Below, in pieces: positions 1 to 20,362 of a DNA stretch of 20,362 nt. Positions within the stretch are counted from its first letter, which is position 1. The number at the start of each line of letters is the position of its first letter. The notes beneath the pieces are model-generated. The model searched no databases, was not told where the DNA came from, and was given only the letters and a program-made list of their open reading frames with translations. The translations under genes and the position numbers were made by a program. The stretch is from a virus. The DNA is taken from IMG/VR virus record IMGVR_UViG_3300008516_000257, positions 1 to 20,362 of that record. One strand, written 5' to 3'.

Positions 1-591
1 GCAGAGCGACTTGTCTACAAAGCAGATGGCACTATTGGTTTAGGTGTAGATGTGGCTAGATTCGGAAGTTCTAAGACGGTGTTTATAGTTATAAAAGGGC
101 CAAAGGTTATTGAGATATTTTCATATCAGGGCAGAGATACAATGGAAACAGCAGGACGTATCAAGCGTTTAATGGATAAATATTCAATTCCTGAAACTGC
201 TGTGTGCATAGATGATACTGGTTTAGGTGGTGGTGTGACTGATAGACTTCATGAGGATGGTTGGAACGTAAGGGGAATAAATAACCAGTCGAAAGCGGAT
301 GACACGGAACACTTCTTTAATCTATCTGCTGAGATGCATTGGGCGATGAGGCGTCTCTTCGAGACTGAGGCAATTGACATTCCATCAGATCCAAGCTTGT
401 TGGCGCAATTGTCTGGTAGAAAATTTAGGGTAACATCGAAGGGCAGGGGGCAGATTCAGATTGAGTCTAAGGAAGATATGAAGAAGCGAGGACTTAAAAG
501 CCCAGACCATGCAGATGCTCTGGCCTTAGCAATCAAGGCACAATCAGAGGCTTCTAATGAGAGCGATGGCCCGATGTTAACGGTAATATAA
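1..591 (+). CDS. terL: Large terminase subunit, C-terminal nuclease domain (5' truncated by window edge)
   Basis: The reading frame is open from base 1 and ends at TAA 589-591, giving the last 196 residues of a gene that begins upstream. It shows the RNase H-like nuclease domain of the large terminase, which cuts concatemeric phage DNA during head packaging. The first metal-binding Asp lies in GLGVDVARFG (residue 17 of the visible part), the second acidic region is VCIDDTGLGGG, and the third is DHADALALAI near the C-terminus. The spacing of these three acidic motifs is what the family requires. The N-terminal ATPase half is outside the window. An internal GTG at 52 could be mistaken for a start but lies inside the first catalytic motif. 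The gene sits directly upstream of zinc-binding small genes and the portal, the usual packaging-module order. Family assignment is firm; the subfamily is not determined. Confidence 0.93.
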   Translation, partial: AERLVYKADGTIGLGVDVARFGSSKTVFIVIKGPKVIEIFSYQGRDTMETAGRIKRLMDKYSIPETAVCIDDTGLGGGVTDRLHEDGWNVRGINNQSKADDTEHFFNLSAEMHWAMRRLFETEAIDIPSDPSLLAQLSGRKFRVTSKGRGQIQIESKEDMKKRGLKSPDHADALALAIKAQSEASNESDGPMLTVI

Positions 592-803: not shown

Positions 804-1040
804 ATGAGAATTCGTAAATGTAATTTTTGTGATAGAATACTTGATGATAAAAAGGATAAGTATTACTCTATTGGAGAGATAGAATGTCATGCTCCTGATA
901 ATAAAACTATTAGAGTAATCACAGACAATACCGAAGAAGTTAAACACCAATCAATACAAACAGAATCGTGGCTTAACTATTGTGACTTAGATTTTTGTGA
1001 GGATTGTTGGGAGCAAGTAGATATACAAAGATTTTTATAA
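804..1040 (+). CDS. Small cysteine-rich, probably zinc-binding protein
   Basis: The product has 78 residues. An N-terminal CNFC knuckle (residues 6-9) and a C-terminal CDLDFCEDCW cluster (about 60-69) could together bind one or two zinc ions, with an acidic, strand-like middle between them. The pattern resembles small treble-clef or rubredoxin-like proteins found in many phage genomes with no assigned role. The start is supported by a GAGGA Shine-Dalgarno at 793-797. The gene is 12 bases downstream of the other zinc-ribbon gene, so the two are probably co-translated. It ends at the edge of the putative structured RNA. I do not recognise a named family; the coding call rests on the cysteine pattern, ribosome site and tight spacing. 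Confidence 0.65.
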   Translation: MRIRKCNFCDRILDDKKDKYYSIGEIECHAPDNKTIRVITDNTEEVKHQSIQTESWLNYCDLDFCEDCWEQVDIQRFL

Positions 1041-1050
1041 TGTTCTTTGA

Positions 1051-1248
1051 CCCAGTGTGGCTGAATAACTCTAACTTCGGAGAAAGGCACTAAAACGTCG
1101 GGACATGGACTAATGTCTGATGACGATGAAAAGAGGAGGCCAAAACAAATAAGGCCTCTGTTTAGGTGGAACGTCTTAACATCATAAATTAATGGTGAAG
1201 AGTAGGCGAGCTTGAAGGTATGCAATAGTCCTTCCACTGTGGCTTTTT
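1051..1248 (+). ncRNA. Putative structured RNA between terminase and portal genes, with a hairpin-loop pseudoknot
   Basis: No convincing gene fits 1041-1251. G+C is about 43 percent, clearly above the neighbouring genes. The + strand can form these pairings. (1) A hairpin 1096-1125 has outer stem 1096-1099/1122-1125 and inner stem 1102-1106/1113-1117 with the six-base loop GGACTA. (2) That loop pairs in full with TAGTCC at 1226-1231. (3) A long-range stem 1165-1171/1232-1238 has 7 pairs including one G-U and abuts the pseudoknot strand, so the two could stack. (4) A hairpin 1136-1141/1153-1158 has six pairs and an A-rich loop. (5) A hairpin 1180-1185/1192-1197 is extended by 1174-1177/1198-1201. 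The segment ends in a T run at 1244-1248. Competing pairings exist (1214-1218/1230-1234 and 1053-1057/1235-1239), so a switch is conceivable. I match it to no known class. It may be a free RNA or a leader of the portal gene. TATAAT at 1036-1041 has no clear -35 box. Confidence 0.55.
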
Positions 1249-1263
1249 AAAATGGAGACAATG

Positions 1264-3519
1264 ATGGGTTTAATGACAAAAGTCTTAAATGTTTTTGGAC
1301 TTGAAAGAGTTGAAAAGACAAGGGCTTATGTAACTCCTCAAGTTGATTTTTCAGATGTAGGTGGTGTTGGCAGATCGACTCCTCAAAATTATAAGTCTTA
1401 TCTAAAACAATATACTGATGCGGCATGGGTATTTACATGTATTCAACGAATTGCCTCTCAAGGAGCGGGGGTTCCTTTGAAGTTATATAAAAAGACAATC
1501 AAAGGTGATAAGATAGAGGCTACAGAGATAATGACACATCCTATTATCAATCTTTTAAATAAGGTAAATCCTTTTGTGACTGGGGTAGATTTAAAAGAAA
1601 TTACATTATCATATGAAGAATTAACAGGTAACGCATATTGGTTATTAGATATGTTTGAGGGTGGAAAACCTACTGAGATTTATCCGTTAAGACCTGATAG
1701 AGTCAAGATAGTTCCAGATAAGAAAAATTATATTAAGGAATATAAATACGAAATTGCTAATAATAAATATATAGCACTTAGTCCAGAACAAATTTTACAT
1801 TTTAGATATTTCAATTCTTATGATGATTATTATGGGCTATCACCATTATCAGCAGGACGTACAGCGGTCAATATTCAACGATTAGGCGATGAATACAATC
1901 AGAATTTTTATGCTAACTCAGCACAACCTAGAGGGGCATTAGTATCAGAAGGCGCGATAAAGAAAGAGAACAAACAACGGATAGCTGCTGCTTGGAAACA
2001 GATGCATCAAGGAACTAGAAATGCACACAAGATAGCAATTCTTGAAGGAGGTCTTAGTTGGCAGGCATTAGGAATATCGCAGAAGGATATGGAATTTATA
2101 AGTCAGAAAAAGATGACTCGTGAAGATATCATGGGGGTATTTGGTGTTCCTCCTGCAATGGTAGGAGTATTTGAATTTGCTAATTATGCTAATTCTAAAG
2201 AGCAACGAGAGATATTTTGGCGTAATACTATGGTGCCTAAGTTGAATAAATATGCTGCGATAGTAAATGAATTTTTAGTAAAGCCCTGGGATGAATCATT
2301 GGAAGTAGAATATGATTATTCTGTGATAGATGCTCTACAAGCAGACATTAACACAAGAGCATCAACTGATGAGGTTCTTACTCGTTCAGGCATTAAAACT
2401 ATTAATGAAGCAAGGGCGGAGAGAGGTTTGGGGCCAGTGCCATGGGGTGATGAGTGGAGGGCCCCTATGAACTTAGCACCAGTTGGATCTTCTCCTGTAG
2501 GTGGAGAATCTGCTAAGGAGATAGAGGATGTTCAAGAAAAAGAATACAAGGAGCAATATTTAAAAGCAGCGGAGGAAAAAGCACAAAGATATATTGTAGA
2601 ACAGACATTAAGAGATGCTGAGAAGGTAGATTTAACCAAGGAACGAGTACAGGAGATCATCGATCATGGAGAGTCTATTAGACCAGATCAACTTGATGAC
2701 ATTATGGATGATATCAAGGATGAGGTTGCCATAGAAGAAGACAAAAAGAAAAAAGAGATCAGAGATAAAAAATGGTATTTATATAAAGATCTCACGGATG
2801 TTTGGGAAAAGAAGTTTATCCCAGTTTTACAAAAAGAATTTAAGATACAATCAAACGAGACATTATTTAATTTAGAGAAGCACGGCTTGAAGAGGGGACC
2901 AAATGATGTAATTCAAAAAGATGCAGATGATGAATTGATAAATAGGATTTTATTTAATAAGAAAAATGCTGATAAGTCGTTACGAAAAAATGGCAAACCA
3001 TTGATTGAAGGAACATTAAAAGCTAATGCTGAGAAAGAAATTAACGCATTAGGTTTAGGAATATCATTCGATCTTCAGAATCCAGCCGTACAGGAATGGA
3101 TCGCAGATAAAACTTTTAAGTTTGCACATAAAGTGAATAAGACGACTCAAGATAAACTAAGAAGGGCTCTTAAAGAAGCTATAAAGGCAGGAGAGGGAAT
3201 TCCTGAGACAAAAGAACGGATCAACAAGGTTTTCACAAGCATATCCAAAGAATGGTCTAGCGTAATAGCAAGAACTGAGGTTATATCAGCCTCTAATGCG
3301 GGGGCAATGGAGGCCTATAAACAATCAAAAGTTGTTACAGAAAAAGAATGGATATCGTCAAGAGATGCAGATGTCAGACCAGAACACCAAATTGATGGTG
3401 AGACTGTTGCATTAGACAAAACATTTTCAAACGGATTAATGTTTCCTGGAGATCCTATGGGAGATCCTGGAAATATTATCAATTGTCGCTGTACGCAATC
3501 TGGAGTAGTGAAAATATAA
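1264..3519 (+). CDS. Portal protein fused to a Mu F-like (SPP1 gp7-type) head morphogenesis domain
   Basis: The product has about 751 residues. Residues 1 to about 400 form an HK97-type portal, the dodecameric ring through which DNA enters and leaves the capsid; the middle contains the typical stretch leading to GVPPAMVG. A charged, helical linker covers about 400-500. From about 503 to the end is a Mu F-like minor head domain, with ARTEV near 669, then KEWISSRD, a PGDP segment and NCRC at 740-743. That domain normally belongs to a separate protein of the capsid interior or portal vertex. Fusions of the two occur in other phages, and the frame is continuous here. GGAG at 1254-1257 best fits ATG 1264 (6 bases) over ATG 1261 or 1252. 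The start is 16 bases after the putative structured RNA, which may influence its translation. Confidence 0.92.
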   Translation: MGLMTKVLNVFGLERVEKTRAYVTPQVDFSDVGGVGRSTPQNYKSYLKQYTDAAWVFTCIQRIASQGAGVPLKLYKKTIKGDKIEATEIMTHPIINLLNKVNPFVTGVDLKEITLSYEELTGNAYWLLDMFEGGKPTEIYPLRPDRVKIVPDKKNYIKEYKYEIANNKYIALSPEQILHFRYFNSYDDYYGLSPLSAGRTAVNIQRLGDEYNQNFYANSAQPRGALVSEGAIKKENKQRIAAAWKQMHQGTRNAHKIAILEGGLSWQALGISQKDMEFISQKKMTREDIMGVFGVPPAMVGVFEFANYANSKEQREIFWRNTMVPKLNKYAAIVNEFLVKPWDESLEVEYDYSVIDALQADINTRASTDEVLTRSGIKTINEARAERGLGPVPWGDEWRAPMNLAPVGSSPVGGESAKEIEDVQEKEYKEQYLKAAEEKAQRYIVEQTLRDAEKVDLTKERVQEIIDHGESIRPDQLDDIMDDIKDEVAIEEDKKKKEIRDKKWYLYKDLTDVWEKKFIPVLQKEFKIQSNETLFNLEKHGLKRGPNDVIQKDADDELINRILFNKKNADKSLRKNGKPLIEGTLKANAEKEINALGLGISFDLQNPAVQEWIADKTFKFAHKVNKTTQDKLRRALKEAIKAGEGIPETKERINKVFTSISKEWSSVIARTEVISASNAGAMEAYKQSKVVTEKEWISSRDADVRPEHQIDGETVALDKTFSNGLMFPGDPMGDPGNIINCRCTQSGVVKI

Positions 3520-19833: not shown

Positions 19834-20362
19834 GTGGCGATTCTTAGTAACGCAGTTAATGCAGGCGACGACATTCTCGCCTCACAATACAACAATTTAA
19901 GAACAGATTTATTGACTGGTGATATAGCGATTGCAGGAATTAAAAGTTTTAGTGATGATTTATATATTGCTGCTACAAAAAAATTATATTTAGACGGTGG
20001 TAGTAATACATATATTACAGAATCAGGTGCTGATGTAATGGATATTTATGTAGGTGGGGCTAACGCAATAAAAATGGCTACTACTTCTGCAACCTTTGCT
20101 CAAGATGTTGTTCTGCCGGCAACTGGTAAATTATATTTAGACGGTGGTGGTGATACATATATTCAAGAACTAACAGGAGATAATCTAAGAATATATGTGG
20201 GAGGGCAAATATCATTAGAATGTAATCCAGATTCGATAATGATTCCTGCTACACAAAAATTATATTTAGACGGTGGTGGTGATACATATATTCAAGAACT
20301 AACAGGAGATAATCTAAGAATATATGTGGGAGGGCAAATATCATTAGAATGTAATCCAGATT
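19834..20362 (+). CDS. Tail fibre protein with LYLDGG repeats (3' truncated by window edge)
   Basis: The visible part covers 176 codons and is open at the window edge. The start is GTG 19834, with AAGGAGG at the end of the previous gene and a spacing of about 8 bases. The first 45 residues (AILSNAVNAGDDILASQYNN, then LRTDLLTG) match the N-terminal region of phage tail fibres that attaches to the tail. Then come repeats of the form KLYLDGGGDTYI, ELTGDNLRIYVGG, ISLE, a beta-rich unit I associate with fibre shafts of environmental phages. Repeats start at 19981, 20128 and 20257; the last two are identical in DNA as far as visible. The tip domain that recognises the host is beyond the window. Confidence 0.83.
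   Translation, partial: MAILSNAVNAGDDILASQYNNLRTDLLTGDIAIAGIKSFSDDLYIAATKKLYLDGGSNTYITESGADVMDIYVGGANAIKMATTSATFAQDVVLPATGKLYLDGGGDTYIQELTGDNLRIYVGGQISLECNPDSIMIPATQKLYLDGGGDTYIQELTGDNLRIYVGGQISLECNPD
20128..20362 (+). repeat. 129-base tandem repeat in the tail fibre gene, identical copies
   Basis: Bases 20128-20233 and 20257-20362 are identical over all 106 visible bases, at an offset of 129 bases (43 codons, frame kept). A diverged copy begins at 19981, 147 bases before the first. The window ends inside the repeat, so the copy number is unknown. Confidence 0.92.

Follow-up and report, generated by a model that had tools for sequence, protein, structure and literature searches.

The manA RNA (RF01745; Weinberg et al. 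2010, PMC2864571; Rfam 14 update, PMC7779021) is a known class of structured RNA that was described for the most part in 5' untranslated regions (PMC2864571); the open-access papers searched report it from cyanophages, from marine metagenomes, from two gamma-proteobacteria and from a plasmid. It has been an orphan class labelled cis-regulatory since 2010, and the 'Cis-reg' label that it carries in Rfam is itself a hypothesis in the original description (PMC2864571). The motif was also picked up in a transcriptome analysis of plasmid pMP7017 (PMC10832533), and the occurrence of manA RNAs beside tRNAs has been noted in prior literature. For a head-operon setting we found no mention in the open-access literature. 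Here we describe a remodelled manA variant in this new context, a phage head operon.

The window analysed here is a 20,362-nucleotide stretch of viral DNA (IMG/VR record IMGVR_UViG_3300008516_000257), in which a gap precedes the portal gene of the head operon (Table 1). A sequence-only reading of the window had pointed out that no gene fits this gap, and the ORF reading bears out its borders, with the stop codon of the upstream ORF at 1040 and the portal start at 1261/1264. In comparison with the nearest relative found (L002, an IMG/VR contig with a portal protein 85% and a terminase large subunit, TerL, 92% identical), no reading frame for a protein spans the gap in clearly conserved form; the sole ORF there, on the minus strand at 977-1237, has a match in L002 of 28% identity (E 0.002) that lies partly over the neighbouring gene. 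Earlier portal starts are possible at 1252 and 1261, and the ATG at 1264 is most likely the one used, judging from the GGAG upstream and the aligned start in L002. The G+C content of the gap is raised, as had been stated, to 42.2% compared with 35.2% for the whole window and 29.8% just upstream, yet about 10% of same-size windows are as rich. The two small ORFs between terL and the gap have no PHROG match; they encode paired cysteines in a zinc-ribbon-like arrangement, and the second is conserved in L002 at 70%. The last ORF of the window (about 20040-20361) contains a repeated block with LYLDGGGDTYIQELTGDNLRIYVGGQISLECNPD, as repetitive tail-fibre-like proteins do.

Table 1. Genes, predicted RNA and helices around the terL/portal gap; positions are those of the window.
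Feature	Position	Strand	Basis or comparison
Terminase large subunit, C-terminal part	1-591	+	phrog_2, E 4.9e-13
Two small ORFs between terL and RNA	597-791, 804-1040		ORF reading
manA-class RNA, full RF01745 extent (structured part 1042-1239)	1035-1244	+	Rfam match
P1, weak local hairpin of 3 pairs (1042-1044/1049-1051)	1042-1051	+	Sequence identical in L002
P2 closing helix, 5' strand CAGUG (partner 1235-1239)	1053-1057	+	L002 has UAGUG/CACUA
P2 closing helix, 3' strand CACUG	1235-1239	+	Pairs with 1053-1057
P3 (1060-1061/1087-1088 and 1069-1071/1080-1082), core UGAAUAA at 1062-1068	1060-1088	+	2 compensatory changes versus L002
P4 domain, closing stem 1090-1094/1161-1165	1090-1165	+	8 compensatory changes versus L002 (closing stem and P4b)
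P4a arm, inner stem 1102-1106/1113-1117 with loop GGACUA	1096-1099/1122-1125	+	Inner pairs checked in window only
P4b arm	1136-1141/1153-1158	+	Compensatory changes counted jointly with P4 closing stem
P5 arm (1172-1176/1204-1208)	1172-1208	+	1 compensatory, 3 one-sided, 0 broken versus L002
P5 inner hairpin	1180-1185/1192-1197	+	From window sequence
P6 hairpin GAAGG-UAUGCAAUAGU-CCUUC, conserved loop (pairs 1214-1218/1230-1234)	1214-1234	+	1 compensatory change versus L002
GGAG, probable portal ribosome-binding site	1254-1257	+	Sequence; aligned start in L002
Portal protein with MuF-like C-terminal domain	1264-3519	+	phrog_2662 portal, E 3.5e-140

At curated thresholds, Rfam gives no match in the window. 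When all 4227 families were searched in E-value mode, however, RF01745 matched the gap end to end with 30.5 bits (E 3.9e-6), and as a single family searched in the record it gave the window match an E-value of 3.7e-8. L002 matches the family at the equivalent place with 24.7 bits; none of 25 other relatives has an RF01745 match. Both scores lie below the RF01745 gathering threshold of 55.2 bits, a limit that curators set conservatively and that does not describe a biological feature. A covariance model made here from canonical manA members only (R1) yielded zero matches in 350 kb of control loci and scored just 13.5 bits (E 0.011) on the window, so the window RNA is far diverged from canonical manA. 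Pattern scans of viral contigs together with family searches revealed a continuum of scores, from canonical marine manA RNAs (150-200 bits) through intermediates (38-135 bits) to the window. The IMG/VR collection was scanned by patterns only: a pattern for close relatives returned 27 loci, of which 26 were false and L002 the single true one, and a second such pattern, with a gap range that would have missed L002, returned zero loci. At L300 190-225, a fragment of the R1 model is matched with an E-value of 0.0052. The gap thus almost certainly holds an RNA of the manA class, diverged and about 200 nt long. The sequence-only reading had taken the RNA to be undescribed, while allowing that a match to a known class would make it described; the full-length match to RF01745 does so.

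The fold agrees with this assignment. The manA core UGRCUGAAUAA, of which UGAAUAA is conserved across the class, lies just inside the closing helix as UGGCUGAAUAA at 1058-1068 in the window and as UGACUGAAUAA in L002; the outer closing helix encloses all inner helices and carries a compensatory change in L002; and the terminal P6 hairpin, with its conserved UA... loop, stands directly 5' of the closing strand. The P4 domain of the class, with three inner hairpins that include GUGGUG and ACCA loops, was not found in the window, which has two arms and neither loop; P4 is remodelled in other diverged manA members too. Because its P4 domain is remodelled and its score falls below the curated cut-off, the gap RNA is a remodelled variant rather than a typical member of the class.

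Comparison with L002 over the 38 pairs of the manA fold, whose helices were placed manually, guided by the Rfam alignment and by conserved anchors and hence with some selection, showed 21 pairs unchanged, 4 changed on one side, 13 with double compensatory changes and none broken. The earlier claim that the gap holds an evolved structured RNA is upheld. In a 29-row manA alignment that includes the window, bases pair as the structure requires in 90.9% of cells, compared with 69.3% in shuffles, a contrast inflated by related sequences, and 37-48% when slid. The closing helix pairs in 99% of cells of this alignment though it is absent from the model used to align, and across the class it occurs in 8 distinct fully complementary types, with variants such as GGGAG/CUCCC, GGGUG/CACCC, CUCCG/CGGAG, GGAUG/CAUCC, CAGUG/CACUG (window) and UAGUG/CACUA (L002). 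It extends to 9 pairs in L301 and 13 pairs in L313, two further copies.

Related phages carry the RNA at several places among their head genes. In the window and in L002 it occupies the terL/portal gap. In L313 it lies in the portal/protease gap (38.3 bits, E 6.5e-11), flanked by a portal-MuF C-terminus and a protease that are 38% and 46% identical to those of the window, and in L301, a contig that was binned into a WOR-3 MAG, it lies between minor head and scaffolding genes (31.5 bits, E 2.9e-6). The P6 loop is nearly identical in the window (UAUGCAAUAGU), L313 (UAUGCAAUAAU) and L301 (UAUGCAAAUAAU). A further relative, L020 (portal 48% identical), gave a tentative terL/portal match of 16.5 bits (E 0.038) that the default-filter search missed. 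The segment between terL and portal of this contig (L020:2496-2705) folds strongly (z -2.95), is closed by a stem of 9 plus 6 pairs and may be a manA RNA that has diverged very far; the small ORF that follows has its start codon within the 3' strand of this stem. A tRNA-Met(CAU) gene (L002:2472-2546) sits directly 5' of the RNA in L002 and is absent from the window; the two sequences differ by a near-exact tRNA cassette at window position 1041/1042, exactly at the RNA 5' end. In L313, the head genes are followed by an unusual neighbour, an ORF (L313:6588-7190) whose sequence alone suggests a peptidase of the caspase-like kind, with the motifs ACHGNATG and TCHSGG and a signal resembling that of lipoproteins.

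Elsewhere, same-strand tRNAs abut 12 of 130 non-redundant manA copies, on both sides in 7, with spacers that mostly measure 0-4 nt but are 17 and 11 nt long in two instances; no opposite-strand tRNA neighbours occur among these 130, and roughly 90% of the surveyed copies lack a tRNA neighbour altogether. The order is tRNA-Leu/manA/tRNA-Asn in S-CREM1 and tRNA-Arg/manA/tRNA-Asn in ACG-2014f, and RB11-B provides a further tRNA-abutting example. The Arg and Asn tRNA genes around manA are unannotated in the ACG-2014f record (L083:2406-2479 and 2693-2764; KJ019037.1). Judged by eye and by simple motif counts, most canonical copies have a TTGACA/TATAAT-like (sigma-70-type) promoter upstream, with the predicted start near the RNA 5' end. 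Downstream of manA copies, either an ORF lies within 20-60 nt, a hairpin resembling a terminator follows, or neither is present; such hairpins occur within 120 nt in 45 of 109 copies versus 16% in shuffles. Just downstream of manA in several marine contigs (L101, L112, L116 and L130), GACCTAAGATGCAACTC...GGGCAGATGGTCT recurs, followed by a T-run; this element is a hairpin resembling a terminator, its loop is unusually conserved, and it may be a small RNA in its own right. Homology, fold and this range of contexts come directly from the computation.

What the RNA does is less certain, and we consider it reasonably likely that manA is a discrete unit, a free structured RNA that acts in trans. 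In the window, the RNA would probably be made within the head-operon transcript and then cut out; among relatives, tRNA processing would free the copies that lie between tRNAs, and others would be made from their own promoter. That the RNA is released from the transcript and acts in trans is what we infer from the contexts, and release in the window is an assumption, because no promoter, terminator or tRNA was seen beside the RNA there. A discrete trans-acting RNA is likelier than a leader of one gene because copies are found between tRNAs, behind their own promoter and in different head-operon gaps.

The main rival is a cis-acting leader, proposed already in the sequence-only reading, in which the RNA is the portal 5' untranslated region and tunes translation or the stability of the operon transcript, perhaps as a riboswitch, as the Rfam label implies. 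We rate this as possible but somewhat unlikely. The closing helix ends 14 nt upstream of the portal ribosome-binding site, the RNA precedes a head gene in all four clear head-operon cases (45-80 nt away in L313 and L301), and the class is known mainly from 5' untranslated regions (PMC2864571). Against this, the downstream gene varies among related phages (portal, protease or scaffold), the next gene in tRNA arrays is a tRNA, no terminator was found between RNA and portal in the window, and the conserved fold does not include the GGAG.

The same reading had raised a role in packaging. An RNA that serves, like the phi29 pRNA, as a structural part of motor or capsid would suit the head-operon location in four phages; beyond this location nothing was found to support it, no pRNA family was matched in the Rfam scans, and the class also occurs in tRNA arrays, on a plasmid and beside metabolic genes. 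We rate such a role as very improbable.

Still less probable is the fold originally proposed, an undescribed RNA in which a GGACTA/TAGTCC pseudoknot stacks on a seven-pair stem (1165-1171/1232-1238). The strings and both pairings are present in the window as described, and just 0.4% of shuffles produce a hairpin whose six-base loop has a perfect complement, although many features could have been picked. Two of the six pseudoknot pairs and two of the seven stem pairs are lost in L002, however, and both helices compete with covarying manA helices of the RF01745 match: TAGTCC shares bases with the 3' strand of P6 (1230-1234), as the stem strand 1232-1238 does with both P6 and the closing helix (1235-1239). 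The stacked arrangement is therefore given up. The hairpin at 1096-1125 that carries GGACTA is compatible with the manA fold as P4a, while the pairing of its loop with TAGTCC is not supported. The closing helix P2 is nested, and we found no evidence for a pseudoknot in the window RNA; four bases of the P4a loop (ACUA, 1109-1112) could pair with UAGU (1226-1229) in the P6 loop, a contact that fits the fold and loses one of its four pairs in L002. That the gap is a non-coding spacer with chance pairing and no functional RNA is scarcely credible, since its ordinary folding energy (z -0.69) is set against 13 compensatory changes with no broken pairs relative to L002 and a significant family match.

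Returning to the discrete trans-acting RNA, we note that a manA RNA diverged in sequence yet structurally kept in head operons, and often placed exactly between tRNAs, argues for a discrete RNA and not for a metabolic-gene leader. More speculatively, manA RNAs may be mainly trans-acting in phages and mobile elements, carried as cassettes within tRNA arrays, after promoters of their own and inside head operons, and one tailed-phage lineage may keep a remodelled copy among its head genes that serves virion production, not host metabolism. The head-operon copies add far-diverged sequences for covariation, and S-CREM1, with its cultured Synechococcus host and tRNA-flanked copy, makes the mode of action directly testable.

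Several other resemblances were pursued and rejected. GGACTA...TAGTCC recalls the P7 pairing of group I introns, and no intron model matched up to an E-value of 10; CUGAUGA...GAAA near 1118 recalls a hammerhead, lacks stem II and has no Rfam match; and a mini-ORF in the core (GUG-ACN-GAA-stop) was discarded, since pMP7017 and L020 carry CAA in place of its stop codon. Among known systems, the phi29 pRNA is a phage RNA tied to packaging, and its likeness to the window RNA is the location by packaging genes; the Rfam scans gave the window RNA no pRNA-family match. The species 1 and 2 RNAs of T4 (rnaC and rnaD) are stable phage RNAs directly against tRNA, like the manA copies of tRNA arrays, but they are shorter and unmatched by the manA model; as manA homologues they were rejected, the best match in the T4 region (E 0.27) lying over tRNA genes. 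Closer is the manA motif of the Bifidobacterium megaplasmid pMP7017 (PMC10832533), likewise diverged and sub-threshold (41.5 bits), which differs in lying in a plasmid tRNA array, 17 nt after tRNA-Phe. With manA itself the window RNA shares the full-length match, the UGAAUAA core, the nested closing helix and the order of P3, P5 and P6; it differs in its score below the cut-off, in a P4 of two arms rather than three with the GUGGUG and ACCA loops unseen, and in its place in a head operon, in contrast to the metabolic-gene or tRNA-array settings of the class.
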